DNA of 64,000 bases, from NCBI GenBank assembly GCA_938007965.1, contig CALLMH010000004.1, positions 62,001-126,000 on the forward strand. Reading direction: 5' to 3'. The notes under the pieces were generated by a model that worked only from the letters and a program-made list of their open reading frames with translations, searched no databases and had not been told where the DNA came from. The position numbers were made by a program, and so were the translations under genes. This DNA comes from an uncultured Saprospiraceae bacterium (GTDB lineage Bacteria > Bacteroidota > Bacteroidia > Chitinophagales > Saprospiraceae). Positions 1-18,938 of the stretch are shown here, one piece after another; the first letter of the stretch is position 1, and the number at the start of each line of letters is the position of its first letter.

Positions 1-249
1 AGCCAAGTCTATGGAGCACTTTCTTTATTAAATGCTGGTCATACTTCCGAAGCTATAGCCTTTATGGAAAATCAATTGCGCTCTATGGATTACGAAGACT
101 ATCATGATATTATCAGATGGTATTATTCATTGGCAGTTTTACAACAAGGTGATAAGAAAAAAGCTATTAATCAGCTTCAGTTTATCAAAAAATCTAAAGG
201 GTATAAAAACAAGGAAGCCGCTGAAATATTAGACGAATTATATAGATGA
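1..249 (+). CDS. C-terminal fragment of a TPR-type helical repeat protein (partial)
   Basis: The reading frame is open from the first base of the window to a TGA stop, so the 5' end lies outside. The visible 82 residues alternate small and aromatic residues in the way tetratricopeptide helices do: a GALSLLNAGHTSEAIAF helix pair, then a WYYSLAVLQQGDKKKAINQL repeat with the usual Y/A/L/G spacing. The end of the frame, EAAEILDEL, looks like a capping helix. Function cannot be told from this piece; such repeats mediate protein-protein contacts in many Bacteroidota surface or regulatory proteins. An internal ATG at 64 is not needed as a start. It converges on the next gene with 45 bases between stop codons. 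Confidence 0.75.
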   Translation, partial: SQVYGALSLLNAGHTSEAIAFMENQLRSMDYEDYHDIIRWYYSLAVLQQGDKKKAINQLQFIKKSKGYKNKEAAEILDELYR

Positions 250-294
250 TTAATATATATTGTGGGTTGATATTTATAGTTTATTGACCTAAGA

Positions 295-3200
295 TTAGGC
301 TTTTGCTCTTGACTTGATAATGAAATAAATCAATAATAAAAATACAGTGCCTAATACGATCCATAATGTAAGATTTCCATACGATGATGATATATCTATA
401 GTCGTATCTTCTCCATAATATACAAAACCTGCCCAATAATATGGATGCCTCATCACTTCTGGCGCTGAGGATAGATAATCCAATTTGGCGTTTTGTAACG
501 CGGTAGATTTACCTTGACCTTTCTTCAGATTAGTGTAGTAGTTACTCATTAATTGGGTAGTAGACTTATCATTGGCGGGCCACAGACTGATGAGCTGATT
601 TTTGCATCCAGCAAAGGCAAATGCTCGGCCTAAGCTGGCTACACCTTCACCACTCTTTATAGCACCTACTCCTGTATTGCATGCACTGAGAGTGACGAGT
701 TCAGTTTGACTCAGATCTAGATTCATGATTTCGAAGGCATTTAGTTTGCCGTCTTCCTTACTAGTGCTATCTGGGTAAAAATACAGTCTAGACCTGTCGG
801 GATTCTCATGATTGACGAAGCCGTGCGTAGCCATATGTATGAAGCCTGATTTTGGTGCCATTTTTTTGAATGTTGCTTCCGTAGCATCAGCTCTTAGTAA
901 GTATTGACCAGTGAATAGATCTCTTATTGCTTTGATTTCGTTTTCGGATTCTTTGAGTTCGACCATTTCGTTTCTATAGATATCATTTTCGTTTTTATCG
1001 TATAAAGCGGCAATAGGATGTGTTTCTTTTTCAATCCCTTCGAATATAGGTGCTATGGCTAGGAAGCCGTTTTGGCTATTTTTATTTTGCTTATTCATGA
1101 CCTTTACCGTTGCAGAATACTGATGCGAAATTGTCATTTTCTCAAACAGGAATGGTTTATCGGCGGATTCTCTGATAAGTCCAAAAGGAATAAGTCCAAA
1201 TATTCCATCGGCGATTATAGTAAGGTGAGTTGTGTGATCTAGATCAATAGGACCTACTATAAGATCATACATTTTTGCTGAGGCAATATTGAAATTATCA
1301 ATGTGTGTTTTATCTTTTACCGCTGATAGAAAGTTGGTGAGTTGATCTACAATGAGATCTCTATCGCCCAAGTTATAAATTTTAGAATTCTCACTTGCTA
1401 CTTTTAAAGCTAGCATGGAGTTTTCTCCATTGTAAAAAGTTATTGAAGTTTCATTAGGAGCTAATCTACTTTGATATTCCGATAATGAGACAATGTTGAA
1501 ATTTAATATTGATTGAAAATATTTAGGATATTCGAGCTCGATTTTTTTGATGAGATTGTATTGTTTTTTCTTGTATTCAGCAATCTTATTGAAAATGTAT
1601 GGGTCCTCTTTATTTTCAATGATTTTGTTTTCGTAGCTTGTAAGGCTATCCTCAATGATTCGTTTTTGATCTATGATTTCTTTCGGCATTCCTAGAAGAG
1701 TTGAGCTATTTTCAGCTCCGATTTTCTCATAAATCATACCATTGTTTCCGTCTTCAATTAGTCTGAATATGAGTGCAATAGCCTCTTCATTTGCATCGTG
1801 ATCGTATTTTGTTAAGTGGGCAGTTATAGCTTGATCATACACATACTTTTGTTTTTGTCTGAAGATTCGTCTAGATGTAGGATCGTCAAGGTAATCTTTC
1901 ATATATGTTATAAGAGTATCTATTTTTTTAGCTTGATGTCTTATCAAGTTGTAGTTAGCCTCTGTAGGGTTGTTTTTGTATTCTCGCGTAAGAAGCGTAA
2001 TATCAACTCCAAATAGTTCGGTCATCAGAAATGGATTTGATACTTTTTCAAAATCAAAGTTGTTTTCCCTCGTATAACCATTGTTTTTATAAGCTGTTTC
2101 TAGCATTGATTTTGCCACGTCTGGTCTGTTCTGATTTTCGTAGATTAAAGCTAAATTAGTATGGATTCGCAAGAGTTCAGGATCTTGAAGATTTCCTATT
2201 TTCTCTCTGATATCAAGTGCATTTTCAAAATATGGCAAGGATTCTTGAAATTTCTTTTGTTGTATATATGCTGACCCAATAACCTGATGGCAATGAGCGA
2301 TATCTTTATGTGTTGGGTCTAAATATTTTTGACGAATTATGAGGGAAGATTCGAATCGTTCAATAGCTTTTTCAAATTCCTTTTTTTGTAGGTGAACCAT
2401 TCCTAGGTTGAAATTTAGGCGACCCATTTCAAAGGATTCTACCCCTTTAGTTTCTTTAATTGCGTCATAATATCTACTATAATATATCTCAGCATTATCG
2501 TAATTTTCAAGCTTTGTATGTGCAAGTGCTAAATTTTGAATGTTGCGCAATGTCCTTGGATGTTTTGGGCCATACTTCTCGATATTTATAGCCATTGATT
2601 TTTCGAGGTAGTACTTAGTGGGTCCATAATCCCCATCTACAAAATGACTCACGGCAATATTAGTATTGAATCTAGATATATTTAATGAGTCCTTTTCAGC
2701 TTCTGCAAGCTCTAATAACTGTATGTACGTCTCTTTTGATTTTTTGTTTTGACTTGTATTGCTGTAGAATACAGCTTTCTCGTTTAGTAAATTTACCCTA
2801 GCGTAGTATTTATCTTCTGGCGAATCTATTTGTTCTACAAGATCTAAGCCTTTATTTATATACGCAAAAGTACTATCTTCCATTTTCATATTTCGGTAGC
2901 TATTAGCCAATTGTACGTAGACTTGGATTGATAGCAATGGATCTATTTTATTTCGATTTATTATTTGTGTAGCTTTCTTTAGTACGATGGTTTTATCTTT
3001 ATAATTCTTATCAACAGATAATATTATCGAATTTGTATGGTAGATTCTTACGATCAGTTCATCTAGAATCTGATTTGAGGAGTTTTGTATTTTTACTAAA
3101 TCTGTAAAAGCAGATTTTGCCTTTTCATACTTTTTCTTTTGTACAAAAGCCCTAACTTCATAAGTAAGTAATTCTAATTTTTGGAGATTATTTTCACTTA

Positions 3201-3348
3201 ATTTTTGACGATCTTTTATCAATGTTAGAGCATTATCATATTCTCTACTTCGGATCAGTTTTTTTATATCACTATTCACTTGTTGCGCTTCTAGATTATA
3301 GCTCACGATACTAAGCAGAATAAGAAATAGGTATTTTTTTACTTCCAT
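295..3348 (-). CDS. Signal-peptide, TPR and CHAT-domain protein with C-terminal membrane anchor
   Basis: A 1017-residue protein. Residues 1-21 form a signal peptide ending ..NLEAQQ. Residues about 40-430 hold many tetratricopeptide repeats, followed by a helical linker. Residues about 690-985 form a CHAT domain, a caspase/separase-like peptidase fold. Both catalytic positions are present: His842 in HMATHG and Cys890 in LSACNTG, followed by the typical GEGVASLGRAF helix. Residues about 994-1010 are one hydrophobic helix followed by basic KSRAKA. I infer an inner-membrane protein with the TPR and CHAT parts in the periplasm. CHAT proteins are established as cysteine peptidases (for example the TPR-CHAT partner of type III-E CRISPR), but secreted versions in Bacteroidota have no known substrate. 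It stands alone, with a palindrome in its leader. Peptidase activity is likely; its target is unknown. Confidence 0.88.
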   Translation of the reverse strand: MEVKKYLFLILLSIVSYNLEAQQVNSDIKKLIRSREYDNALTLIKDRQKLSENNLQKLELLTYEVRAFVQKKKYEKAKSAFTDLVKIQNSSNQILDELIVRIYHTNSIILSVDKNYKDKTIVLKKATQIINRNKIDPLLSIQVYVQLANSYRNMKMEDSTFAYINKGLDLVEQIDSPEDKYYARVNLLNEKAVFYSNTSQNKKSKETYIQLLELAEAEKDSLNISRFNTNIAVSHFVDGDYGPTKYYLEKSMAINIEKYGPKHPRTLRNIQNLALAHTKLENYDNAEIYYSRYYDAIKETKGVESFEMGRLNFNLGMVHLQKKEFEKAIERFESSLIIRQKYLDPTHKDIAHCHQVIGSAYIQQKKFQESLPYFENALDIREKIGNLQDPELLRIHTNLALIYENQNRPDVAKSMLETAYKNNGYTRENNFDFEKVSNPFLMTELFGVDITLLTREYKNNPTEANYNLIRHQAKKIDTLITYMKDYLDDPTSRRIFRQKQKYVYDQAITAHLTKYDHDANEEAIALIFRLIEDGNNGMIYEKIGAENSSTLLGMPKEIIDQKRIIEDSLTSYENKIIENKEDPYIFNKIAEYKKKQYNLIKKIELEYPKYFQSILNFNIVSLSEYQSRLAPNETSITFYNGENSMLALKVASENSKIYNLGDRDLIVDQLTNFLSAVKDKTHIDNFNIASAKMYDLIVGPIDLDHTTHLTIIADGIFGLIPFGLIRESADKPFLFEKMTISHQYSATVKVMNKQNKNSQNGFLAIAPIFEGIEKETHPIAALYDKNENDIYRNEMVELKESENEIKAIRDLFTGQYLLRADATEATFKKMAPKSGFIHMATHGFVNHENPDRSRLYFYPDSTSKEDGKLNAFEIMNLDLSQTELVTLSACNTGVGAIKSGEGVASLGRAFAFAGCKNQLISLWPANDKSTTQLMSNYYTNLKKGQGKSTALQNAKLDYLSSAPEVMRHPYYWAGFVYYGEDTTIDISSSYGNLTLWIVLGTVFLLLIYFIIKSRAKA

Positions 3349-3830
3349 TAATAGGTGGTTTTGTTGGAGTGAGCATTAAGATATCAATTTACGGGTTAAG
3401 TGCCAAATGACGAATCCTATGTTTTGCTATCAGTTGTTTCACAACTGAATACCATGGATCTTATCTATTCCATAAAATCATCAAAATTATTTGGATTTAT
3501 ATGTCTATTTTTTGTGGAATCTGTATCAACTATGGTATAAACTATTGTAAAACCTATACTATGCTAGTAATGGACTATTCACTAATCGGCCACTTTATCG
3601 GAATGATAGCAATTGGTCTACCTAGTAGTATTTGTATCGGAAGTAATAATAATGACTTTGGTATTTCTAATCTTCCTATAGATAAGTTGACATCTATCTA
3701 TTTATAAATAAGAACCAAGAACTGTTGAAAAATAGACATCAAAGCACATGTATTGAAATTTAAAAATCAAATTTTGAAAATAGAAGTAGATTATATTTTG
3801 CCGATTATATAGTAACACTAAATATTAAAA
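3349..3830. other. Divergent intergenic region between the TPR-CHAT gene and the S74-domain gene
   Basis: This 482-base spacer must carry promoters for two divergent genes. It contains the palindrome described separately. Close to the right-hand gene there is a TTTG at 3773-3776 and a TATATTTTG at 3792-3800, which resembles the Bacteroidota -33/-7 promoter but has one extra base in the -7 box, so it is only a weak candidate. A 68-codon open frame at 3501-3707 has no recognisable protein features and I do not regard it as a gene. Confidence 0.5.
3430..3448. promoter_or_regulatory. Perfect 8-bp inverted repeat with 3-base spacer in the leader of the TPR-CHAT gene
   Basis: The sequence TCAGTTGTTTCACAACTGA reads as two perfect 8-base arms around TTC. 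It lies 82-100 bases upstream of the TPR-CHAT start codon. On DNA it could be an operator for a dimeric regulator; on RNA it could form a short hairpin. No T-run follows on either strand, which argues against a terminator. Confidence 0.4.
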
Positions 3831-6800
3831 ATGAATTACTCCAATATCTTCTCCATCTTAAAGCGTATTTTGATAGTCATTACTTTCTTTAATATGACGA
3901 TGCTTCATGCCCAAATCCCCAACAATACCTGTGACGGTGCTCTAGAGATTCTAGTACAGCAGTTGGGTGATACACCTATTATGACAGATGTTATATTTAT
4001 CAATAATACTATAGAGAGTTATGGTACTTCAGAAAATCCAGGTGGCTACGCATGGTGTGTCCCAAATAATCAAAGTAATCCCAACAATATTTCTGTTATT
4101 GATAATTTCTTCTCATTTGTAGCACCGTCTTCTGGCGCAGTATTTATTGTTCTAGACGAAGATTTGGACAGTGATATGCAAGGGTCAATAAGAAGTTCTT
4201 GTACTACATTCAATAATCCAGTCATAACATGTCTTAACAGTAAAGGCACCAATAACATAGCTATAGAAGATCTGACTCCTGGTCAGTCTTATATACTGAG
4301 TTTTATGGTGGAAGTAGATTCCAACACAAATCTTTCAGAAAAAAATAGAACTGTTTCAATTTTTGAAGTTATACCTTTTGTCCTAGATTGTCCTAAAGCT
4401 AGAATTACTGAGATTCACTATGATGATAGTGAGGGAGATGTGCATGAATTTATAGAGATAACAGCTCTAGCTGGAGAATCTCTAGCTGGATACACGGTCG
4501 AAGTCCATAATGAAAGTATTAACCTCGTTGACATACCAGTACAGTATGTATTTACTTTGGATGGGAATTCTACTCCCGTACCAAATAGTGATATCTCAAT
4601 TGATACTATTTTATTTCCAGAAGAATATTTATATTTTGGGTTCACTGCTACTAGTCTTCTGCCAGATAATGCTACTGCAATTTCTTTAAGAGACCCATCA
4701 GGAAAGATTGTAGATCTTATTTCTTACGAGGGAAATGTGATTGTCGATGGATTGATCCCATTGGACATCATAGTCCAAGAAAACAGCCTAGATCCTATAA
4801 TCCACTCCTTGAGATCTCAGGATATAAGTGGTCATAGTATCTGGGCGCGAAGTATCGATACCTCACCTAATATGTATAATAGTGAACTAAGTCCAGTTAT
4901 AGAATCAGCTACGGCTATATGGCAAGGTGGTACAGGCAATTGGGCATCTGCGAATTGGGAAGGCGCATCAGGGTTTGGTGGTTTGTCTATTTATAATGGG
5001 ACAGCAGTGACTATTCCATCAGGTACAGTTACAGTGGATGCTATATTTGAAAATGGTTCTGACTGCTACAGTACTTCAAGTGAAAAATATTATGAAACAT
5101 CTATCAAGAGTTTAGTGTCAGATGGAGATATGATAGTTACTACTAATGGAGGATTGTCAGCGGAAGAATCAATTGTAATCAATGGAGTGCTTGATATTAA
5201 TGCAGCTATATCTGCACCCGTCATACAAGTAAAAGATATGAATATAGGTGCTGTGGATATAGTATCTGTAGATATTACAGGTGATTTACAGATCGACAAT
5301 AAATTATCATTTGGGATTGAGGGCTTGGTAGGGGCAGGATCAGCTGGGGGCAGTGACTATCTATCTGTGAATGGAGATTTAGAGATCAATGCTCCTGTAG
5401 AAATTACGATTTCAGATACATATCCAGAGGGGACTAGTATTCCCCTGATTTCGTATGGATCATTTGATCAGGTACTCAACGAGCAAAATCTACCAGCAGG
5501 ATGGATATTAGAAAATAATGGTTCTACGAAGATTATTTCTGCAATAAAAGCGGAGAGACCAATTAATGATCTTTGTCTGGGAGCTATCGATATACCTCTT
5601 TCTCAAGATGCTAATGTGGCTTCGATCGATTCTACATCGAACACCTATGCTCAATTCGATATTCAGGACGAGTGCAGTAACGATAACTCTTCAAGAGGTG
5701 TCTGGTACTCTATCAATGCTCCAGAAGATGCTACCTATACAGTATCGGCGGATAATTTTTCATCTAATGTGAATTTACAACTTTTTGAGGGAGACTGTAC
5801 TACACTGACTTCGCTGTCCTGCGGGAATACAACACTTTCTTACGAATTAGAGTCTTCTAAATCATATTACATCTTAGCAACAACGGACAACAATCAATTT
5901 TCATCTTTTGATCTTACATTTATAAAATACGAGTCTCCATTTACTGATATCACACCTGTGGGTATCAATGTGTCACAGCCATTGAGTACGTTAGATGTCG
6001 ATGGATCTATCAGGATAGGTAATGACAGTACGGCTCTTCCAGGAGTTTTGAGATTCCGTAGAAATAGATTTGAAGGATTTACAGGCTTACAATGGAAAAG
6101 TCTCGATGATAGCAATGACAACCTGGGAGATCACAAAGCTACCCAAAACATTGATGGGTCAGGATACGCCATCAAAAACATATTGAGTCCTTCGGATCCA
6201 AATGATGCAGCGACAAAGCAATATGTGGATAGCCATGAGGATGCAGATAGTGATGCTACCAATGAACTTCAAACACTATCAATTTCAAATAATCTAATCT
6301 CTTTGACAGACGGAGGAACGATAAGTTTACCACAAAGCAATCCTTCTTGGTCTCAGATTACTAGCAAACCTAATGGGTTCGCGGACAATGTCGATAATGT
6401 AGATGATGCAGACAATGACCCCAGCAATGAAATAGAAACTTGGGCTACCCTTAGCGGGATTCCATCTGGATTCTCTGATAATATTGATAATATCAACGAC
6501 GCAGATAGTGATGATGATAACGAACGTATCTCTGATATTCAATTGACGAATACTATACTAAACATCGAAGAAGGTGCAACGAGCAAATCAATCGACCTTA
6601 CACCCATCGCATCACAATGGGACAATCTTGCAAACAATGAAATCCACTACAGTGATGGACAAGTAGGCGTCGGAGTCAGCTCAAGTATCAATGATAGAAT
6701 GCATATCAGATCTTCTGCTGGAGAGAATGCGCTAAGAGTACAAGTTGGCACAGCGACTAAGTTCAGAGTATATGCAAACGGAGGGATCGCGCTAGGATCG

Positions 6801-7550
6801 AATCCATCAAATATTGGTGCTAATAATGTATTCGTCTCGGACTCTATTGGTATAGGTGAAATAGCTCCACAAGAAAAACTACATATAGATGGAGGCGTTA
6901 TAATAGAAAAAAATTCATCATCAGGCAATCCGACACTAAACCTACTAGAGACGGGTTCGGGTGAGGATTTTATCAGACTATATATGGAGAATGAGACTGG
7001 TAATCGAGCTGTGATCGCCGCTCGTCCTAGAACAAATACCGATGATTCTCAGATGAATTTTTTCTTAGATGGTCCTGGCGATGTGATGATCATCAGAGGA
7101 GATGAGAAAATAGCCATGCATAGAGGTACTCCTCTGCATCCACTACACATCGGGGATAATACCACAAATGGAAACGGTGCACACCTGACCGCCGGAGGTA
7201 CCTGGACAAACGGATCCAGCCGATCTTTCAAAGAAAATATTACTACTGTCAATTCCGCATTGATACTTCAGAAATTGTCCGAGTTGGATATTGCGACTTG
7301 GGATTATATAGATTCTGATGAGGGTCCGCATATTGGACCAATCGCAGAGGAGTTTTACGCAACCTTTGGATTTGGAGGAAATCAAAAGTACATCTCTACC
7401 GTAGATGCTGACGGGGTAGCGTTAGCGGCTATAAAAGCCCTTTATGAGGAAAATATAGATCTAAAGAATCAGTTAGAAACACAAAATGAATTACTTAAAC
7501 AGGTATTGGATAGACTAGGAAAATTAGAAACTGGTATAAGTAAGAAATAA
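3831..7550 (+). CDS. Secreted multidomain protein with C-terminal S74 (endosialidase-type) intramolecular chaperone
   Basis: A 1239-residue protein. The N-terminus has a signal peptide ending near LHAQIP. Residues about 185-320 resemble a lamin-tail domain (ARITEIHYDDSEGDVHEFIEI). Residues about 580-700 resemble a pre-peptidase C-terminal beta domain (SRGVWYSINAPEDATYTV). Residues about 770-930 contain ATKQYVD and repeated Asn/Asp-rich segments as in trimeric tail fibres. From about 1130 comes SRSFKENI, the hallmark of peptidase S74 chaperones that drive trimerisation and then cleave themselves off, followed by a coiled coil at about 1200-1235. I infer a trimeric surface or released fibre. 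There are no phage genes nearby and no T9SS sorting domain, so the export route past the periplasm is unclear. The next gene is convergent. Confidence 0.82.
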   Translation: MNYSNIFSILKRILIVITFFNMTMLHAQIPNNTCDGALEILVQQLGDTPIMTDVIFINNTIESYGTSENPGGYAWCVPNNQSNPNNISVIDNFFSFVAPSSGAVFIVLDEDLDSDMQGSIRSSCTTFNNPVITCLNSKGTNNIAIEDLTPGQSYILSFMVEVDSNTNLSEKNRTVSIFEVIPFVLDCPKARITEIHYDDSEGDVHEFIEITALAGESLAGYTVEVHNESINLVDIPVQYVFTLDGNSTPVPNSDISIDTILFPEEYLYFGFTATSLLPDNATAISLRDPSGKIVDLISYEGNVIVDGLIPLDIIVQENSLDPIIHSLRSQDISGHSIWARSIDTSPNMYNSELSPVIESATAIWQGGTGNWASANWEGASGFGGLSIYNGTAVTIPSGTVTVDAIFENGSDCYSTSSEKYYETSIKSLVSDGDMIVTTNGGLSAEESIVINGVLDINAAISAPVIQVKDMNIGAVDIVSVDITGDLQIDNKLSFGIEGLVGAGSAGGSDYLSVNGDLEINAPVEITISDTYPEGTSIPLISYGSFDQVLNEQNLPAGWILENNGSTKIISAIKAERPINDLCLGAIDIPLSQDANVASIDSTSNTYAQFDIQDECSNDNSSRGVWYSINAPEDATYTVSADNFSSNVNLQLFEGDCTTLTSLSCGNTTLSYELESSKSYYILATTDNNQFSSFDLTFIKYESPFTDITPVGINVSQPLSTLDVDGSIRIGNDSTALPGVLRFRRNRFEGFTGLQWKSLDDSNDNLGDHKATQNIDGSGYAIKNILSPSDPNDAATKQYVDSHEDADSDATNELQTLSISNNLISLTDGGTISLPQSNPSWSQITSKPNGFADNVDNVDDADNDPSNEIETWATLSGIPSGFSDNIDNINDADSDDDNERISDIQLTNTILNIEEGATSKSIDLTPIASQWDNLANNEIHYSDGQVGVGVSSSINDRMHIRSSAGENALRVQVGTATKFRVYANGGIALGSNPSNIGANNVFVSDSIGIGEIAPQEKLHIDGGVIIEKNSSSGNPTLNLLETGSGEDFIRLYMENETGNRAVIAARPRTNTDDSQMNFFLDGPGDVMIIRGDEKIAMHRGTPLHPLHIGDNTTNGNGAHLTAGGTWTNGSSRSFKENITTVNSALILQKLSELDIATWDYIDSDEGPHIGPIAEEFYATFGFGGNQKYISTVDADGVALAAIKALYEENIDLKNQLETQNELLKQVLDRLGKLETGISKK

Positions 7551-7679
7551 CTTGGGATGATCATGAGTAAGGGCACTTTCTGAATTCTTGTATTTTATAA
7601 ATTTGCTAAAACAAGTTAAAGTGGACTTAGTCAGTATAGATTTTCGTAGACTAATTTTCGTTAAAAACAGAACCATCTT

Positions 7680-7710
7680 GGAATAAAGGCATTCGTTATT
7701 TACGGATATC
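7680..7710. repeat. Dispersed intergenic repeat, copy 1
   Basis: This 31-base stretch matches 33375-33405 at 25 of 31 positions without gaps, starting GGAATAA and ending GGATATC in both. Both copies lie between convergent genes. A looser, gapped resemblance exists at 26224-26254 (AAGG, ATTC, then TTATTT and ACGGATAT). There are no flanking direct repeats and no coding capacity, so the nature of the element is unknown and chance similarity is not excluded. Confidence 0.35.
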
Positions 7711-7763
7711 CCGAACTTGTCAAAGAAAACGGTCTTTAATTAAAGAAGTTTACCAGCAAATTT

Positions 7764-8321
7764 TTATTTCTGATATTGAGAAGGTACACTCAGCGCTATC
7801 GCTACTTCCTTGCCCACTGTAAATCCAAATAGATTGCCATTGATATTATAGTCTTTACGGTTGATCGTCGTAGTCCCATTGAGATATTTAGCATCATTGA
7901 TAGTTTCATATTTGAATGGAATCGATATCTCCTTGGTGACATCTTTGACAGTAAGGTTACCTACGGCGATATAAGATTCGCCAGATTTCGAAATATTCGT
8001 CGCCACGAATTTCATCAGTGGATACTGGGCAGCATCAAACCATTTTGAGTTTCTCGCATGATCGTCCTTTTTAGTATTTCCAGTCTGTATGGTTGCTACT
8101 TGTACAGATACATCTATTTGAGCATCCTGATATAGATCTGGATCGAAATCAACAGTTCCTTTTAGTCCATTAAAAGTACCCTCCGCTTTACCAGTTTCAA
8201 ATTTTATAGAATATGTATCTGAAACTGTATACTTATGAAGATCATATTCTGCGAATGTTATCGCTAGCAGAGAGCTGATAAAAAATGAAAGGGCCAATGC
8301 AGTTTGTTTTGTGTTTTTCAT
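7764..8321 (-). CDS. YceI family periplasmic lipid-binding protein
   Basis: A 185-residue protein with a signal peptide (about residues 1-24, ending TFAEYDL). The rest follows the YceI beta-barrel pattern: YTVSDTYSIKFE, then GTFNGLKGTVDFDPD, DDHARNSKWFDAAQYP, and the closing FGFTVGKEVAIALSV strand. YceI proteins are lipocalin-like and bind long polyisoprenoid or amide lipids in the periplasm; the physiological role is mostly unknown. It is probably cotranscribed with the small membrane protein just upstream, 18 bases apart, which may be related to its membrane supply of ligand (inference). Length is normal for the family. Confidence 0.92.
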   Translation of the reverse strand: MKNTKQTALALSFFISSLLAITFAEYDLHKYTVSDTYSIKFETGKAEGTFNGLKGTVDFDPDLYQDAQIDVSVQVATIQTGNTKKDDHARNSKWFDAAQYPLMKFVATNISKSGESYIAVGNLTVKDVTKEISIPFKYETINDAKYLNGTTTINRKDYNINGNLFGFTVGKEVAIALSVPSQYQK

Positions 8322-8339
8322 ACTTTTTGATTTGATACG

Positions 8340-8594
8340 TTATCGTTTATCATTTTTATCTCGAACTTCATCCTCATATCTGATTCTATATCTAATAGAG
8401 TCCACAAACAGTACCAAGCCGCTCATCAATACTATCAAAGATACAGTGCCGGCAGCAATCCACTTCCAATTGTCAGGATGAGTATGCTTATAGAATCCAG
8501 CTTTGATGACCATCGATATACCAGCTCCAGTCATAAGTATACCTATGGTTCCTTGTGTAAACCATCGACGATATATTTTATTTGAAAAGTCCAT
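8340..8594 (-). CDS. Small two-helix membrane protein upstream of the YceI gene
   Basis: I choose the ATG giving MDFSNKIYRRW (84 residues). A longer frame begins 16 codons earlier, but the extra stretch has no family-like features. The sequence holds a hydrophobic helix at about residues 14-29 (GTIGILMTGAGISMVIK), a short HTHPDNWKW loop, a second helix at about 42-62, and a highly charged tail ending EVRDKNDKR. I do not recognise a family. The position directly before the YceI gene with an 18-base gap suggests one transcript and perhaps a shared membrane role. Confidence 0.7.
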   Translation of the reverse strand: MDFSNKIYRRWFTQGTIGILMTGAGISMVIKAGFYKHTHPDNWKWIAAGTVSLIVLMSGLVLFVDSIRYRIRYEDEVRDKNDKR

Positions 8595-8826
8595 ATATAA
8601 AACGACACATTTTACTAGATATAGTTCATCTGTACATATCAATAGTACAAATATTTCTATTTAGATGCGTTTATTTTATATAACTTAAATATTTGTAAAT
8701 CAATTAATTAGTTCCATTTTTTCGTTTAAATATTCTTTTTGGCATCCATTTTGCACTACATATATGGAGTACAATATTTATTATTCAATATTGTAATTGA
8801 ATGTTAATAAAAAAACCACTGAGCAG

Positions 8827-9492
8827 ATGGCTAGTAGTATAGCGGTGTTAGATTGTCAGAAGATGTTTGTAGAGGGGATGGAATCTCACTTCAAACTTAC
8901 GCAAAGCAAGTACGAAGTTGTAACAAGCATGTGTAGTTCTGAAAGCCTTCATAAAGCTATACAAGAAATAAGTTTCGAATTTTTAATACTAGACCTTAAT
9001 ATACCTGATCAAGATGGTTTGCACATAATTGAAGAGTTAAGAAGTTTATTTCCTCAATTATTTATCATAGTCTTATCATCTTATACAGATGTGAAATTGG
9101 TAAAAGGTGCGATGGTAAACGGTGCAGATGGATATGTAAGAAAATCTAGCACCTTTTCAGAATTGATTTTTGCATTAGACGAAGTCGCAGCGGGTAATAC
9201 GTACATAGGTGACGGATTGAGAACATCACCTCCCTCGGCAACTAGTAGAAGATTACTTAAAGAAAAATCTTCTAAATATGAAGATCGATTTACAATAAAA
9301 CAAAAACTAACAAAACGTGAATCAGAAATTTTAGAATTACTGACACAAGGAATGAGCAATAAAAGTATTGCAGGAAAATTATATATAAGTGACCAGACCG
9401 TGGGCGTCCATCGAAAAAATATGATGAAAAAGCTAGGTTTGAATAATACGGCTTCACTTATAAAATTTGCCCTTGAAAATCATTTGGTATAG
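8827..9492 (+). CDS. LuxR/NarL-type response regulator without adjacent sensor kinase
   Basis: From the ATG at 8827 the protein has 221 residues. A TTG 30 bases earlier is in frame, but the ATG places the phospho-acceptor at the usual number, Asp56 in LILDLNIPDQDG. Conserved Ser/Thr (VLSS) and Lys106 (YVRK) are present. The usual acidic pair near the N-terminus is Asp-Cys (VLDCQKMF) instead of Asp-Asp, which may weaken magnesium binding and phosphorylation. The C-terminal helix-turn-helix starts LTKRESEILELLTQGMSNKSIA and continues with the recognition helix SDQTVGVHRKNMMKKL. Such regulators bind promoter DNA as dimers. No kinase gene is near, and the next gene is a giant T9SS cargo in the same direction, a plausible target. 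A TTTGCACTA at 8750 resembles a promoter -7 region. Confidence 0.9.
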   Translation: MASSIAVLDCQKMFVEGMESHFKLTQSKYEVVTSMCSSESLHKAIQEISFEFLILDLNIPDQDGLHIIEELRSLFPQLFIIVLSSYTDVKLVKGAMVNGADGYVRKSSTFSELIFALDEVAAGNTYIGDGLRTSPPSATSRRLLKEKSSKYEDRFTIKQKLTKRESEILELLTQGMSNKSIAGKLYISDQTVGVHRKNMMKKLGLNNTASLIKFALENHLV

Positions 9493-9604
9493 TTTATGCT
9501 GTACATAAAATAATAATACCTTTTTTCCAACTATCTGAGATTTACAGAAAGCCTGTATTGATCATATAGAATAGAAAAGAAATTATAATAATCGTTTGAA
9601 ATTT

Positions 9605-9621
9605 GAGTTCCCCCCGAACTC
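9605..9621 (+). promoter_or_regulatory. Small hairpin with a C-tract loop in the leader of the T9SS cargo gene
   Basis: GAGTTC, five C, GAACTC form a perfect 6-bp inverted repeat. The cytosine run is unusual in this AT-rich sequence. It lies 87 bases before the start codon of the next gene and could be an operator or a leader-RNA hairpin. There is no T-run after it. Confidence 0.3.
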
Positions 9622-9707
9622 TTTCGCTTGATTCTCTTCTCTAATAATCGAACAAATAATTTAGACAGAATCATTTTTTAGAAAAATTTTTAAAACCGAT
9701 TTATCTC

Positions 9708-12700
9708 ATGAATATGGAGAATTTTACCACAAAAACGAAAACCTCGTTTGATAAGTTTATCAGAACAGGTTTTCTCTCTGCCGCATTATTCTTGCTGGCA
9801 TTTGGCACAGCTCAGGCTCAGTGTCCTCTTGGATGTAATAATAGTGTACAGATCTCGTTAGATACAGACTGTATGGTAGAAGTAACACCCGATATGGTGT
9901 TAGAAGGACAAGGTACTACAGGATGTGATTACACAGTCCAAGTATTAGGTTCTGACAACCAACCGATACCTACTTCACCTATCGTAGGTGCAGCTTATAT
10001 CGGCGAAACTTTAACTGTAAAAATATCGCTAGGAGCTAATAGCTGTTGGGGTAGTATTACTATTGAAGACAAATTACCACCTGTGATTGACTGTCCTGGA
10101 GACATGACAGTATCTTGTTACCAATCAAGTGACTTTCCTAATCCAATTGCAACAGACAATTGTGATGGAAATATCGCCGTTGATGTAGTTTCGGATGATA
10201 TCGTAGATCTTGACTGTAATAATGAGTTCAGTGCAAGAAGAACAATCATCTATCAAGCTACTGATGGATCAGGTAACAAATCAGCTTTCTGTACTAAGAA
10301 TATCTTCTTTGAGCGTATTGAGCTTACGGATATCGTATTCCCAGAGAACAGAGACGATGTCGAGTTACCATCTCTTGAATGTGACAATATTCCAGCTTGG
10401 GATACTAACAATGATGGATATCCTCAACCAGAAGAAACAGGAACTCCAACTACACTTGATGGATTTAACATCTTCCCTAATAACTCATACTGTGAGTTGA
10501 ATGCTACGTTTGCAGATCAGGTATTACCTATTTGTGAGTCTAGCTTCAAAGTATTGAGAACATGGACTGTTCTTGATTGGTGTACAGCTGAGATCAGAGA
10601 AGAATTCCAGATTGTAAAAGTTGTAGATAATGAGAATCCTATTGTGACAACATTACAAGATCTACCATTTGCTACCTCTGCAGATCCTTATGATTGTGAG
10701 GCTGATTGGTTAGTACCAGCACCGATCATAATCTTTGACTGTAGTTCTACATCATATACAGTACAGTATCTACTTGCTGATAATAATGGTGCACCGCCAG
10801 TAGATGGCTTATACATCGATGATGATGTAACGACTAATCCTGATGGAACATTCACTATCAATAATCTTCCACTAGGAAGAACTTGGGTAAGATATACTGT
10901 AATGGATGCTTGTGGTAATATTACATTTGCATTCGTCGAGATTGACGTTGTAGATGATGTACCTCCAGTTCCAGTATGTGATGAGTTCACAGTAGCAACA
11001 TTGACTAACAATGGTTACGCTCACATATTTGCTGAGACATTTGATGATGGATCGCATGACAATTGTAGCGATGTGACTTTCGAAGTAAGAAGAATGACTC
11101 CAGGTTGTGGCGCTTCTACATCTGCATGGACTGAATTCGCAGAATTCTGCTGTGATGATATAGGGAGCGAAGTAATGGTTTCTCTAAGAGTAACTGATGA
11201 AAGTGGTAACTCTAACACTTGTATGGTTATCGTAAACGTACAGGATAAGTTGGACCCAGTAATAGAATGTCCTCCAAATATCACTGTAGATTGTGGAACT
11301 GACATCAGTGACTTAGGTATCACTGGTATGGCTACAGCTTCTGATAACTGTGGTGATGCAGAAATAACAATGAACGATTCTGGATCATTAAATGATTGTG
11401 GAGTAGGTACTATCTTCAGAAGATTTACAGCTACAGATGCTGGTGGAAGATCAGTGAACTGTACTCAGAGAATAACAGTTGAAGACGACTCTCCTTTCTT
11501 AGGTGGATCAATCAACTGGCCTCCAAACAGAACCTTGAATGGTTGTGCAATGATCGATACTGATCCAGAAAATACGGGTGTGCCGACATACAACGATGAC
11601 TTATGTAGTCAGGTAGCTGATACATATGAAGATCAGACATTTACATTCGTAGATGATGTATGTCTTAAGATCTTAAGAACTTGGACAGTAATAGATTGGT
11701 GTACATTCGATCAGAACAATCCTAACGATGGAGGTATCTACCAATATACTCAAGTAATAAAAGTAAGTAACAATGTGAAGCCAGTCTTCAATACTTGTTC
11801 AGACATCACAGTTGATGCATTCGGTCAAGACTGTAATGGATTCGCTGAGATTATCGTAGGAGCTACGGATGATTGTACTCCAGAAGAAGAATTGAACTAT
11901 GCTTACACGCTTGATGAATTCAATGACGGATCTATCGATGCTGTCGGTAGTACAAATGATGCAAGTCAAACTTTAGAAGTAGGAACACACAGTATCACAT
12001 TTACTGTAGAAGATCAGTGTGGTAATCAAGAGATATGTTCATTCTTAGTAAGAGTATTGGACAAGAAGAAGCCGACTCCTTACTGTCTTTCTGAGATTAC
12101 AACTGTAATCATGCCTTCATCAGGTCAGATTGATATATGGGCATCAGATTTCGATCTTGGAAGTGTAGATAACTGTCCAGGTGATGTACTTATCTCATTC
12201 TCTAGTAATGTGAATAATACACAGAGATTCTTCAACTGTGATCAGTTAGGAATGAATGATGTAGAGATCTGGGTAACAGATGCGTCTGGTAATCAAGATT
12301 TCTGTACGACTACGATCAATATCCAAGATAATGGTGGATGTACAGGAAGTAAAATCTCTGGCTTAATAGCTAACACAAACGATGAGATGATCAACGAAGT
12401 GAAAGTTACTAAGACTAATATGACTAACTACTCATCTGAGTTCTATATGACTCCATTCGGAGGAGGTTACAACTTTGTAAACCCTGCGATAGAGACGAGT
12501 TATGAGATCAAAGCTGAGAAGGATACAGATCATACAAATGGTGTATCGACTCTTGACCTTGTACTTGTACAAAGACATATCTTAGGACTACAGGAGCTAG
12601 ATTCTCCATACAAAGTAATAGCTGGTGATGTAAATAACAGTGAATCATTAACTTCTTCTGATTTATTAGAATTGAGAAAATTGATCTTAGGTATTAAGAC

Positions 12701-13922: not shown

Positions 13923-16900
13923 ATGCGGTATTTACTACTGATACTAACCATCATAATATCTTTCGATCTATCCGCTCAGATGGTCGACAACAATGAGACT
14001 CTCTTTGGTAATGAATGGATAGATTATGACAAAACATATGCGAAAATCATAGTCGACAAGGATGGGATTTATAGAGTCACGCGCCAAGAGCTTGCAGAGA
14101 ATGGTATTCCTGTCAGTTCTATCTCATTTGATAGATTGCAACTTTGGAATTATGGAAAAGAGGTCGGTTTTTATATTGGTCCAGATGATAGTTATATCGA
14201 ATTCTACGGAGAAAAAAATAAAACTCAGATAGATAGATTTTTATTTGAGGATCAAGATTTGATGTTGAATAGAAAATATAGCTTCATTACTGATGATGCA
14301 GCATACTTCGCAACATGGACAGAAGAAATCAACGATTTAGTTTTCGAAGAATCAATAGTAGATCTCTCGAATAATACTTTGTCGCCAGAAGCCTATTACT
14401 TACATACAGAGGAAGTAGTACTCTCCAGCACTCATTATAAATCATCGCTTGCAGAACAGGTGAGATACTCTGATTTTGTTTCTACAGAAGGTTACGGCTC
14501 CGGACTAAAAACAGAGAATAATGTAAATGTACCCATAGTAAGAAAAGCGGGTGTCGATATCAATGGCGCATTATATGTAAGGTATGGCGGAAACAATTTT
14601 CCACATCGAACCTCAGCAACTATAAACGGTGTGGCTCAAGGCGAGTTTCAGTCAGTTTTGGATACTGTGCAAGAGCTAAATTTTGAGGTGCCAGCTCCTA
14701 TGTTGGAAGATAATAGTATAGAAATCAAACTGAGAGGAACCTTACCTGGCACCAATGATAAAAATATTATTTCTGAAGTCGCTCTTACGTATCCTAGAGA
14801 ATTTCATATGGGCGAAAATTCTGTGTACAGAGTAAGTTTATCACCATCTGCAACTATCAGATACGTAGAAATAGACGGCTACTCGGAATCTGAGTTGCCT
14901 GTGATATATGATATTAGAAATAATACGAGGATTATTGCAGAATTTACACTCGATGGTAAAGTAGGGGTCTTAATCGATCCTTCATCTCAAGGCAGCGAAC
15001 TTCTAATTAGTAAACCTTCTACAGCTTTCGATCAGCCAAAGGAGGTAGTAAGAAGAAATTTCGTTTCGTATGCCGACCGATCGGATGCTGAGTTTTTGAT
15101 GGTCACTAGTGCCGACTTAAGAACTGACGGCAATACGGACTGGGTTCAAGCATATTCTGATTATAGGTCTTCTGAAGTCGGTGGTGATTATATTACCAGT
15201 ATTGTAGATGTAGATCAATTATATGATCAATTTGCATATGGAGTGAATAGACATTTTATCAGTTTGAAAAATTATGCACACTGGGTAATAGCGAACTATG
15301 ATGATCCGAAGTTTCTATTCATCGTAGGTAAAGGGATGGAATATCCAGAAATAAGAAACGAAGCCGTAGCGGAAGAAATGACGGATTTTCAAGTGCCTAC
15401 TTGGGGAGTACCTGGCTCAGATAATCTCTTGTTATCTACATTTGATTCGCATGTACCTTTGCTTCCTGTAGGTAGGATTGCTGCAACTAGTGCAGAAGAT
15501 GTCAAAAACTATCTTGATAAAGTAAGAGATCAAGAATTAAATGTAAACAATCCAGCTACTCTAGAAGGTAGAAGATGGCAAAAAAACGTTTTGCACCTTA
15601 GTGGTGGTGCTGGAGCAAATGAGCAACAATCTCTTTTTAATTCATTGGCTATCATGGCTGATACCATCGAAAATAATTTGATGGGTGCGAATGTCAGTAC
15701 ATTCCGAAAGACATCGACGGACCCTATTGAAAATGCTACCTCGGATTTGATATTTGATGAGATAAAGAATGGACTTTCGCTTATCAGTTTTTTTGGTCAT
15801 GCGAGTGTAGGGGCTTTCGACTTCAATCTTGATAATGTGGAAAATTATGAGAACAAAGGTAAGTACCCATTACTGATGTCCCTTGGCTGTTATTCTGGCA
15901 ATATACATACAAGATTTGGTGGAATATCGGAGAGTTTTGTACTTACTAAAGATAAGGGATCCATAGCTTTTGTTGCAGCATCTGGTTCTGCATATATAAG
16001 TACTCAGAACCTATTTGGAAAGGAGTTTTATTCTGAGTTAGGAGGTGATTCTTATGGAGACCCTATTGGAATTGCACTGGTCAAAGTTATCGATACATTT
16101 AGTGCTTTTCAGAATTCAGGCTCAGTGACTTTCTATCAGCAGCTTACTTATCATGGAGATCCAGCTGTAAGACTTCCGAGTTTTCGTACGCCTGATTATC
16201 TAGTAGATGCATCAAGTGTGAATACCAATCCGCAGATTATTGATACCTATGAAGAAAGCTTTGAAGTTTGTTTTGATGTAGTCAATATTGGAAAGAATAC
16301 GGCAGATAGTATCGACGTACTTATCCAACATGAAAATCCGCAAGGAGGAATAGAATATGAAACAACTAGCAGGATCAAGGGTCCAGCAAATAATCAAAAT
16401 CTATGCGTAAATATACCGATTAGTTCTACTGACCTAGTGGGAAGGAACAAGATACTAGTAACTGTAGATAACGCAAATGAGATAGAAGAACTACCTGCTC
16501 CAGACGCTGAATCTAATAATATCCTAAGAAATCAAAGCGGTACAGAAGGACACGAGTTTTTTATATTGAATAATAGTGCTGTGCCCACATTTCCAGAAGA
16601 GTTTGCAATTGTAAATACAGAAAAGGTAGTACTTACAGCGAATACCTTCAATGCATTCGGTGATCCTCAGACCTATTTTGTAGAGATTGACACTACGATT
16701 TTGTTTGACAGTCCTTCATTACGTAAAAGAGAATTCAATGAAATAAAGTCATTGGTAAAGTGGGAGTTAGACTTCGCACTGGCAAATGAAACAGTATATT
16801 ACTGGCGTGTAGGATCGAGAAATGACGCGTCTAGTGATATCATATGGAGAGAAAGCTCTTTTGTGTACGAACCAGGTCAACGAGCTGGATGGAGTCAAGA

Positions 16901-18938
16901 ACATTATTTCCAATTCTTAGAAAATGATTTTGATAATATTGAATATGAAGATGGTACGAGGCAGATGAAGTTTGTGGATAATGTGAAGGAAGTGAAAATG
17001 GATAATGGTATTGTATCTCAACCAGATGCATTCACAGAATTTTTTATCAACTCTCAATTATGGAATAGATGGAGGAGCAACAATAATGGTATAAATTCAG
17101 GTGTAGGACTTGTCGTTTTTGATCCAGTGCTAGGAAATACATTAATAAGTTACGCGGATAATCCTTTGTGGGGTAGTGCTCCGCCTGATGCTGCATTGAG
17201 TTTTTATATTCAATTTCCAACATCGACACAAGAAGAAAGACAACATTTAATTTCTGTTTTAAAAGATTCAATTCCTTCTGATCATATAGTATGTGTTAAT
17301 TTTCTTCAAGTAAATCTTGTGAATAGAAATAATCTTGAAGAGTGGGAGGAAGATAAAGATGTATTAGGTACTACCATATTTGAAGTGTTAGAGGAGAGAG
17401 GGGCTCAGCGTTTAGACGAGTTGAAAGATTTAGGTCCTTTGCCATACATATATGTTTATGAGAACAAATTTGAGAATGGCTTCTATAAAACGATATCGGA
17501 AGAAATTGCTTTATCTGAAAATGAACAAGCAAATTCACTTTTTCAAGTAAAAACATTGTGGGATAGAGGTGAAGTAGCTACTAGTTATATAGGTCCTGCT
17601 TCTCAATGGGATGAATTAGAATGGAATGTTAATTTTTCGAATTTTCCTGAAAATGATACTGTTAATGTTGACATAATTGGTCTTAATGTAGATGGTGAAG
17701 AAGTATTGCTATTTGAAAATTTGCCTCTTGCTAATTTTGATCTTAGTGAAATAGACGCCAATTCATACCCATACATAAAGCTTAAAATGTTCTCTAGTGA
17801 TTCCGAAAATTTATCGACAGCTACGCTTGATAAATTGAGGGTGTATTATACAGGGATTGGTGATCTAGCACTTAATACGGATGAAGGTTATAAGTTTGAA
17901 TCGAGTAAGCTAGATGAAGGCGAAAAGCTGTCTCTTTCACTCAGAATTGATAATATATCTAATGTTTCAGTCGGGAATACAAATTTAGATTTTGATGTAA
18001 CAGATGATCAAAATAATACGACGAAGTATAGTACAGAAGTACCTGCACTTGGTGCGAATGAATCCTCAATTCAAAGTATTGATATAGACACAAGAGGTCT
18101 GGTTGGCGATCATATATTACAAGTTCAACTTAATCAAAATAAAAGCCCTAATGAGAAGTACTATTTTAATAATTTCTCTTTAGCGAAATTCGAAGTTGTA
18201 AAAGACTCTATCAATCCTCTACTGGATGTGACATTTGATGGAGTACAGATTATGAATGATGATATCGTATCTTCTAAGCCTCTGATTCGTATAGAATTGG
18301 ATGATAGTAATCCATACTTGTTACTAGATGATCCTACAAGCTTTGTGATTGCTCTCACCGCACCTGATCAAGAACAAGTACAAATATCTGTGGATGATCC
18401 TTCGATCAACTTCCTACCAGCTGAATCAGGCGAAGAGAACAGAGCCGTCATAGAATATAATCCAGAATTTTTAGAAGATGGAAGATATACACTATCTGTG
18501 CAGTCAAGGGATGCATCTGGGAATTCTTCTGCGAATCTTGATTATGAGATTAATTTCCGAGTATTCAATGAGGAGATGGTATCTAATGTATTTAACTACC
18601 CGAATCCATTTAGCACAAGTACACAGTTCATATTTACACTGACAGGCAATGAAGAGCCAGCTAATATGCTGATCCGGATCATGACGATGACAGGTAAGGT
18701 AGTAAGAGAAATAACAGCGTCAGAGTTGGGGACACTACGAATAGGTACAAATAGGACAGACTTCAAATGGGATGGTACGGACGAATTTGGCGAACAACTA
18801 GGGAATGGTACATATCTCTACCAAGTTATTACTAAAAAACTAGATGGTAGTGACTACAATAGCTTTACAGATCCATCACAGGACAATACAGATCATTTGT
18901 TTACCGAAGGTTTTGGTAAGTTGGTAATAATGCGATAG
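13923..18938 (+). CDS. porU2: PorU2-like C25 (gingipain-family) peptidase linked to type IX secretion
   Basis: A 1671-residue protein with signal peptide MRYLLLILTIIISFDLSAQ. Residues about 410-770 form a C25 cysteine peptidase domain; the catalytic pair is visible as His626 (FFGHAS) and Cys656 (SLGCYSG). Residues about 775-880 look like a CARDB-type Ig domain. Residues about 1555-1671 are FlgD-like (YPNPFSTSTQF, then KWDGTDEFGEQLGNGTYLYQ). PorU is the T9SS sortase that removes sorting domains from cargo and attaches them to lipopolysaccharide. PorU2 is a longer relative found beside or instead of PorU in many Bacteroidota, with less certain function. The neighbouring upstream gene is a T9SS cargo, which fits. 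Its own C-terminus looks more like a FlgD fold than a cargo sorting signal. Naming as PorU2 rather than PorU rests on length and C-terminal architecture. Confidence 0.85.
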   Translation: MRYLLLILTIIISFDLSAQMVDNNETLFGNEWIDYDKTYAKIIVDKDGIYRVTRQELAENGIPVSSISFDRLQLWNYGKEVGFYIGPDDSYIEFYGEKNKTQIDRFLFEDQDLMLNRKYSFITDDAAYFATWTEEINDLVFEESIVDLSNNTLSPEAYYLHTEEVVLSSTHYKSSLAEQVRYSDFVSTEGYGSGLKTENNVNVPIVRKAGVDINGALYVRYGGNNFPHRTSATINGVAQGEFQSVLDTVQELNFEVPAPMLEDNSIEIKLRGTLPGTNDKNIISEVALTYPREFHMGENSVYRVSLSPSATIRYVEIDGYSESELPVIYDIRNNTRIIAEFTLDGKVGVLIDPSSQGSELLISKPSTAFDQPKEVVRRNFVSYADRSDAEFLMVTSADLRTDGNTDWVQAYSDYRSSEVGGDYITSIVDVDQLYDQFAYGVNRHFISLKNYAHWVIANYDDPKFLFIVGKGMEYPEIRNEAVAEEMTDFQVPTWGVPGSDNLLLSTFDSHVPLLPVGRIAATSAEDVKNYLDKVRDQELNVNNPATLEGRRWQKNVLHLSGGAGANEQQSLFNSLAIMADTIENNLMGANVSTFRKTSTDPIENATSDLIFDEIKNGLSLISFFGHASVGAFDFNLDNVENYENKGKYPLLMSLGCYSGNIHTRFGGISESFVLTKDKGSIAFVAASGSAYISTQNLFGKEFYSELGGDSYGDPIGIALVKVIDTFSAFQNSGSVTFYQQLTYHGDPAVRLPSFRTPDYLVDASSVNTNPQIIDTYEESFEVCFDVVNIGKNTADSIDVLIQHENPQGGIEYETTSRIKGPANNQNLCVNIPISSTDLVGRNKILVTVDNANEIEELPAPDAESNNILRNQSGTEGHEFFILNNSAVPTFPEEFAIVNTEKVVLTANTFNAFGDPQTYFVEIDTTILFDSPSLRKREFNEIKSLVKWELDFALANETVYYWRVGSRNDASSDIIWRESSFVYEPGQRAGWSQEHYFQFLENDFDNIEYEDGTRQMKFVDNVKEVKMDNGIVSQPDAFTEFFINSQLWNRWRSNNNGINSGVGLVVFDPVLGNTLISYADNPLWGSAPPDAALSFYIQFPTSTQEERQHLISVLKDSIPSDHIVCVNFLQVNLVNRNNLEEWEEDKDVLGTTIFEVLEERGAQRLDELKDLGPLPYIYVYENKFENGFYKTISEEIALSENEQANSLFQVKTLWDRGEVATSYIGPASQWDELEWNVNFSNFPENDTVNVDIIGLNVDGEEVLLFENLPLANFDLSEIDANSYPYIKLKMFSSDSENLSTATLDKLRVYYTGIGDLALNTDEGYKFESSKLDEGEKLSLSLRIDNISNVSVGNTNLDFDVTDDQNNTTKYSTEVPALGANESSIQSIDIDTRGLVGDHILQVQLNQNKSPNEKYYFNNFSLAKFEVVKDSINPLLDVTFDGVQIMNDDIVSSKPLIRIELDDSNPYLLLDDPTSFVIALTAPDQEQVQISVDDPSINFLPAESGEENRAVIEYNPEFLEDGRYTLSVQSRDASGNSSANLDYEINFRVFNEEMVSNVFNYPNPFSTSTQFIFTLTGNEEPANMLIRIMTMTGKVVREITASELGTLRIGTNRTDFKWDGTDEFGEQLGNGTYLYQVITKKLDGSDYNSFTDPSQDNTDHLFTEGFGKLVIMR

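Follow-up and report, generated by a model that had tools for sequence, protein, structure and literature searches.

The activity of extracytoplasmic function (ECF) sigma factors has been tied in two cases to proteins that combine tetratricopeptide repeats (TPRs) with a CHAT domain, in one by fusion to the inhibitor of the sigma factor and in the other by its cleavage. In Myxococcus xanthus, the ECF factor DdvS becomes active once its cognate anti-sigma factor, DdvA, is inactivated, the signal being described as unknown (PMC4374960), and in type III-E CRISPR systems Csx29 cleaves Csx30, an inhibitor of the ECF-like CASP-sigma (PMC10028731). Regulation by proteolysis has also been proposed for group ECF54, in whose genetic context CHAT proteins are found (PMC8999054), and in the DegS/RseA/RseP cascade a periplasmic cut at site 1 is followed by another at site 2 (PMC8103513). 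Caspase-domain conflict systems (EACC2/caspase and TRADD-N) have been described with ECF sigma and TPR (DUF1822) neighbors, the word CHAT being absent from the main text of that report in the portion available (PMC8195603). The present analysis concerns a stretch of 64,000 nucleotides (hereafter the window) from an uncultured Saprospiraceae bacterium (contig CALLMH010000004.1, positions 62,001 to 126,000), at whose left edge a gene for a TPR-CHAT protein stands beside genes for an ECF sigma factor and for an anti-sigma-like membrane protein.

A first-pass annotation of the window had described the CHAT gene as solitary, with no substrate gene adjacent. This apparent solitariness is an artefact of the window edge, which falls inside the gene adjoining the CHAT gene and leaves the start of that gene, together with the ECF sigma gene, outside. 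On the same contig taken 16 kb further left of the window (region L002), the ECF sigma gene spans positions 15033-15572, wholly left of the window, and encodes a protein of 179 aa that matches TIGR02937 (E 3e-18) with 66 bits against a cut-off of 42.9, which places it among the ECF factors. It overlaps the gene of the anti-sigma-like protein, a transmembrane (TM) protein with TPRs, which extends over L002 15569-16249 (226 aa) and whose last 82 codons lie at positions 1..249 (+) of the window. The TM-TPR gene and the CHAT gene (295..3348, minus strand, 1017 aa) are convergent, tail to tail, with their ends 45 bp apart, and the candidate substrate is the very next gene. The reading favored here, tentatively and at somewhat less than an even chance, is that of a signaling module divided among a sigma factor, an anti-sigma factor, and a protease: the predicted periplasmic TPR-CHAT protein would cut the inhibitor-like protein and free the ECF factor, the cleavage being inferred.

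The search for co-occurring genes that the first-pass annotation had proposed as a check returns a recurrent partner in relatives. A sigma profile grown from the window's own sigma factor was applied to the mechanically called open reading frames (ORFs) of 80 regions around CHAT matches from a search of 100 genomes, which gave 85 CHAT genes with the window's own. An ECF gene lies within 3 kb of 37 of the 63 CHAT genes with 3 kb flanks on both sides (and of 49 of the 85 overall), and a TM-TPR gene follows that ECF gene in every case (37/37 and 49/49, respectively). From the density of three ECF genes per 400 kb in 20 control regions, picked by position on seven long contigs, 4.25 such cases would be expected by chance against the 37 observed; an ECF gene lies near 7 of 199 control ORFs, and near 3 of the 25 ORFs of at least 600 aa. 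Of 48 neighboring sigma proteins, 47 reach E<=0.001 against TIGR02937, and over all loci a TM-TPR protein comes next in 87 of the 98 ECF hits with a downstream neighbor on the same strand. The 37 trios are convergent (17), divergent (13), or codirectional (7), with four orientations in all, which argues for selection rather than for a single inherited order. In the 40 regions gathered around homologues of the inhibitor-like protein (set B), a CHAT gene is present within 5 kb of the sigma/TM-TPR pair in 18 of 36 cases, or in 11 of the 25 with 5 kb flanks.

A second sample, made up of the best 80 CHAT matches in named genomes and sharing several contigs with the first, has an ECF gene near the CHAT gene in 26 of 61 cases with 3 kb flanks and in 29 of 91 overall. 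The trio is present in Zobellia russellii (L296), Aureibaculum flavum (L258), Moheibacter lacus (L283), Kordia zhangzhouensis (L276), Aquimarina (L252, L310), Fulvivirga marina (L271), and Agaribacillus (L246, L273), as well as in a Bacteroidales metagenome-assembled genome (L281) and in another titled bacterium BMS3Abin03 (L262); it was not found at the sampled loci of Aquimarina muelleri (L237) and Thermoflexibacter (L275). CHAT genes can also be arranged in tandem, as in a relative of the same genus, where two of them precede one sigma/inhibitor pair (L093 6445-12704), and at L132, L135, L251, and L252, while seven CHAT matches are listed on one contig (C619) of genome G048.

At the level of whole genomes, CHAT matches occur in 69 of the 100 genomes, the window's own included, and in 101 of 198 sampled across the phylum; several genomes hold at least 21, and the window's own (4.19 Mb, listed as 100% complete) holds one. 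In a single-sequence search, the TM-TPR protein has homologues in 40 of the 69 CHAT-bearing genomes against 2 of the 31 CHAT-less ones (Fisher 6e-7), 27 of these 31 lying outside the window's family and hence being more distant; inside it, homologues are found in 32 of 57 CHAT-bearing and 0 of 4 CHAT-less genomes. Because it picks up generic TPRs, a profile made from 84 inhibitor-like proteins has matches in all 100 genomes, and only its best E-values are informative: at E<=1e-26, it finds 62 of the 69 and 2 of the 31, and at 1e-15, 1e-20, and 1e-30 it finds 67 and 11, 66 and 10, and 57 and 1, respectively. Since the cut-off of 1e-26 was picked after the values had been seen, and since the sequences behind the profile came from CHAT-rich genomes, the single-sequence count is the fairer of the two. 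A genome of the same genus (G002, listed as 94% complete) has neither a CHAT match nor an inhibitor-like match in the single-sequence search, a parallel absence.

The three proteins also diverge together. Distance correlations over 47 trios are 0.36 for CHAT and inhibitor, 0.39 for CHAT and sigma, and 0.43 for sigma and inhibitor, and shuffling partners among same-genome paralogues only (25 trios, 10 genomes) gives p values of 0.0018, 0.0002, and 0.0002, respectively, which shows that the trio is inherited as a unit and says nothing of physical contact. Between the window's locus and that of its same-genus relative (L002/L093), identity is 66% for the sigma factor, 36% for the inhibitor, and 40% for the CHAT protein; by part, it amounts to 33% for the TPRs and 47% for the CHAT domain of the latter, and to 31% for the TPRs of the inhibitor. 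In this one pair, the repeats predicted to face outward are the most divergent, as expected of sensors.

The domain structure of the CHAT protein, whose features all lie on the minus strand, is that of a predicted periplasmic, inner-membrane-anchored protein, as judged from its ORF, Pfam matches, conservation, and a structural model. It begins with a signal-peptide-like leader (residues 1-22, MEVKKYLFLILLSIVSYNLEAQ; 3283..3348) with a hydrophobicity of 2.25 over 12 residues, followed by a TPR superhelix (residues 23-430; 2059..3282) recognized by Pfam TPR matches and by helices in the model. The CHAT domain (PF12770, residues 692-980; 409..1275) is matched at E 1.6e-58 with 198.9 bits against a curated cut-off of 24 bits, which places the protein in the family, and the C-terminus bears a membrane helix (residues 990-1011; 316..381; hydrophobicity 2.81, helix 990-1016 in the model) followed by a short basic tail, KSRAKA. 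The leader, the TPRs, the CHAT domain, and the C-terminal helix had been proposed in the first-pass annotation and are corroborated here, as are the two catalytic residues at the numbers it gave: His842 (codon 823..825) and Cys890 (codon 679..681) are each found in 103 of 104 alignment rows, the remaining row being truncated there, so that the dyad is invariant in every covering row. Gly902, Trp923, Pro969, and Trp972 are invariant in an alignment of 80 rows. Among the 99 homologues of at least 850 aa, hydrophobicity predicts the C-terminal helix in 83 (charge placing the C-terminus inside in 66 of these) and the leader together with the helix in 76, as a sum of rows.

The AlphaFold2 model, made from the 80-row alignment, has a mean predicted local distance difference test (pLDDT) of 91.6 and a predicted template modelling score of 0.87. 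With VIA-align, its best structural matches are Craspase/Csx29 structures (Z 33-24; top Z 33.1, root-mean-square deviation (rmsd) 8.6, 573 aligned residues), followed by separase (Z 28.5-22; top Z 28.5, rmsd 5.3, 510 aligned) and DdvA (Z 23.3, rmsd 9.3, 588 aligned, over residues 174-979 of the CHAT protein). Full-length queries of the PDB returned TPR proteins (27 sequences, TPR proteins by name, with phmmer; the best 60 of 278 matches with a profile), for which reason a CHAT-only profile was used; its nearest match is DdvA (8rot, 8rw5; E 1.4e-8), with the His and Cys positions aligned, and then the TPR-CHAT protein of Craspase (E 2.4e-4). The dyad seen in the alignment and the caspase-like fold of the model together mark the protein as a predicted clan CD cysteine peptidase. 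The outcomes that the first-pass annotation had named as speaking against it—no caspase-like fold, an unconserved dyad, a cytosolic location—did not occur, location and activity being predicted. Its picture of an anchored periplasmic protease that senses through its TPRs remains the best general reading, stripped of the solitary state, while its premise that characterized TPR-CHAT proteins are cytosolic misses DdvA, whose PDB title calls it a transmembrane anti-sigma factor.

The inhibitor-like protein of the window consists of approximately 58 residues, one membrane helix, and a TPR fold. Of 87 family members, 85 have such a predicted helix, and in 80 of the 87 positive charge is more abundant on its N-terminal side, a distribution that predicts an inner N-terminus and periplasmic TPRs. 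The N-terminal consensus, IxxYLxxxLxxxExxxFExxL, resembles in the authors' reading the N-termini of zinc-finger anti-sigma factors without their zinc ligands. In the own genome, one strong match to the family is found (E 1.2e-40), the next (7.8e-14) lying on a contig with no listed ECF hit. Five more matches (C4:26773, C17:23832, C9:29781, C69:19228, C36:3952) are all confined to the N-terminal half of the profile, and all five lie on the same strand as an ECF hit and downstream of it, within 0.7 kb, which is the best evidence here that the N-terminal part may bind ECF factors; these proteins perhaps carry different periplasmic sensor parts on one type of anti-sigma N-terminus. Behind the helix, a moderately conserved juxtamembrane stretch, LxAxYFxPYxxxxxxR (Arg110 in 82% of the 87), is a candidate recognition or cutting site. 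A Foldseek search with the inhibitor model gave no hit at E<=0.001, the rows shown consisting largely of TPR folds, BamD and YbgF among them, and the N-terminal half being barely probed.

The module of the favored reading would comprise an ECF sigma factor, an inner-membrane protein that crosses the membrane once and combines an anti-sigma-like N-terminus in the cytosol with the juxtamembrane stretch and with periplasmic TPRs, and a periplasmic, C-terminally anchored TPR-CHAT cysteine peptidase. As two membrane-tethered proteins with predicted periplasmic TPRs, the latter two would face each other. The TPRs of the CHAT protein would sense a signal from the envelope or from outside, and the activated CHAT domain, tethered next to the anti-sigma protein, would make the site-1 cut in the periplasmic part of the latter. 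An M50 intramembrane protease and cytosolic proteases would then complete the breakdown of the inhibitor, releasing the ECF factor. Of this scheme, the analysis documents the three genes and their recurrence, their joint inheritance, the conservation of the dyad, and a fold and facing topologies that are predicted; that the inhibitor-like protein binds the sigma factor and serves as the substrate, and what kind of signal acts, are inferred. An M50 (site-2) peptidase is present in the own genome, a weak indication, being also found in all 14 control genomes.

The same arrangement would allow the CHAT protein to gate the anti-sigma protein without cutting it, as a sensor comparable to RseB that docks TPR to TPR and uses the CHAT fold as a binding module, another protease making the site-1 cut. 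The location of the TPRs of both proteins on the predicted periplasmic side would suit this alternative, as would the presence of the CHAT fold in the anti-sigma chain itself in DdvA and the low identity of both TPR parts in the L002/L093 pair relative to the sigma factor. However, the invariance of His842 and Cys890 would not be expected of a mere scaffold, and this explanation is considered unlikely.

A different explanation makes the CHAT gene an output of the sigma/anti-sigma pair, that is, a regulon member acting as effector or processing protease rather than an upstream activator. ECF factors often control neighboring genes, and CHAT genes also occur with no sigma/TM-TPR pair nearby, both of which would be in line with such a role. 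However, no upstream signal shared by matched sigma and CHAT genes was detected in 20 convergent pairs (p 0.25, in a weak test), and an output role is judged rather improbable. An inverted repeat with 8-bp arms, TCAGTTGTttcACAACTGA, does lie upstream of the CHAT gene (3430..3448, no strand), as the first-pass annotation had noted. Its proposal as a control site is not borne out: the window has 7 repeats of this kind (arms of at least 8, spacer of at most 8) where five Markov shuffles have 10-20, no such repeat lies in the 300 bp upstream of five other CHAT genes examined, and the palindrome was rejected as an operator. Over all sampled genes, 10 of the 81 regions upstream of CHAT genes hold such a repeat, compared with 1-9 in five shuffled sets, and a slight excess is possible.

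Several observations weigh against the cleavage reading. The sigma and CHAT genes show no promoter signal in common (p 0.25), and the correlated divergence is explicable by linkage alone. The anti-sigma likeness of the inhibitor is weak: its consensus pattern fits 23 of 87 members, among 10 chosen members, 4 show a zf-HC2 match that stays under the cut-off (residues 7-32), 5 of 84 show one at E<=0.01, and the window's own protein shows none, and the inhibitor model (pLDDT 82.1) is poor in its N-terminal part. Sigma/TM-TPR pairs have no CHAT gene within 5 kb in 18 of 36 cases of set B (14 of the 25 with 5 kb flanks), and for 26 of the 63 CHAT genes no ECF gene lies within 3 kb, so that each can do without the other as a close neighbor. 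No ECF hit is present at the four sampled loci of genome G024, at the two of G060, or at any of ten Aureispira CHAT loci (L249, L250, L255, L268, L270, L293, L294, L299, L303, L308), where CHAT may have a different partner or a trans arrangement. In the flanks of the CHAT-less pairs, no family occurs in more than 5 of the 69 proteins scanned, as seen in the 25 of 112 families shown (a sorting domain of the type IX secretion system (T9SS) in 5 and DUF4837 in 3; one of the 70 proteins, of 1340 aa, was omitted, and those above 2500 aa were excluded). The unpaired CHAT genes, those of Aureispira among them, would also suit an independent periplasmic housekeeping or defense protease linked to the pair indirectly, but the excess over chance, the four orientations, the co-occurrence across genomes, and the within-genome pairing make this very unlikely.

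The surroundings of the trio contain further genes. Divergently from the CHAT gene, positions 3831-7550 (+) encode a secreted-type protein of 1239 aa in which a weak lamin-tail match and a T9SS-associated galactose-binding-like domain are accompanied, at the C-terminus, by a Peptidase_S74 domain (endosialidase chaperone), which is known mainly from phage fibers. At 13923-18938 (+), a Peptidase C25 protein of 1671 aa with a FlgD Ig-like domain is possibly the type IX secretion sortase PorU. On the left, beside an LpxR-like gene, a short ORF with repeated NHRSAF/NHRFAGKRS-type units (L002 13047-13379, minus strand) resembles a DNA repeat array more than a gene. No Rfam match reached the gathering threshold in positions 1-10000 of the window, and PADLOC gave a generic TPR match for the CHAT protein and none for the sigma or inhibitor-like proteins. 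The PADLOC matches of a regulator at L002 8797-9492 to CARF-named models center on its LuxR-type helix-turn-helix. No Cas7-11 was seen among the ORFs listed for L002 8-20 kb and window 1-8 kb, nine nearby genes scanned with Pfam, and four proteins scanned with PADLOC, the remaining genome not having been searched for it.

No trio of CHAT, ECF sigma, and anti-sigma genes is described among the open-access literature matches listed, mostly titles and beginnings of abstracts, which does not establish its absence from print. Related cases are in print—the ECF54 context, Csx29-Csx30, and DdvA-DdvS—and the split trio is a variant on these. ECF54 shares the CHAT protein in its context, but it is described without an anti-sigma factor, in a model from Geodermatophilus with CHAT, subtilase, or carboxypeptidase genes in context, whereas here an anti-sigma-like gene comes next after every ECF gene near CHAT and overlaps the sigma gene at the window's own locus. 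Csx29 is likewise a TPR-CHAT protease; however, target RNA activates it within a complex that contains Cas7-11, while the protein of the window is predicted to be periplasmic and, within the nearby genes scanned, has no type III-E CRISPR locus beside it. DdvA, whose CHAT domain is the nearest among PDB entries as judged by sequence profile, shares the TPR and CHAT folds and the pairing with an ECF sigma gene, but holds its CHAT region, which is periplasmic, within the anti-sigma chain, where the trio has two proteins encoded by two genes. The order of cuts proposed here is like that of DegS, a PDZ serine protease instead of a caspase-like cysteine peptidase with TPRs, and separase, the eukaryotic cohesin protease, shares the fold with no functional link.

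CHAT proteins are abundant in Bacteroidota, and the recurrent partner provides many of them with a concrete and testable candidate substrate. In the literature consulted, a substrate is demonstrated for the CRISPR-linked Csx29 alone; others may exist, the bacterial gasdermin proteases being possible further cases. If the cleavage reading is true, caspase-like enzymes would join the site-1 proteases of anti-sigma factors. The trio also suggests an origin for the Craspase-Csx30-sigma logic. On a wider and more doubtful view, Bacteroidota and some neighbors might hold a large, diversified, non-CRISPR family of envelope-signaling systems, in which a separase-like periplasmic TPR-CHAT protease would make the site-1 cut in a TM-TPR anti-sigma factor, with type III-E Craspase/Csx30/CASP-sigma as a cytosolic offshoot and DdvA as a fused offshoot of this older partnership.

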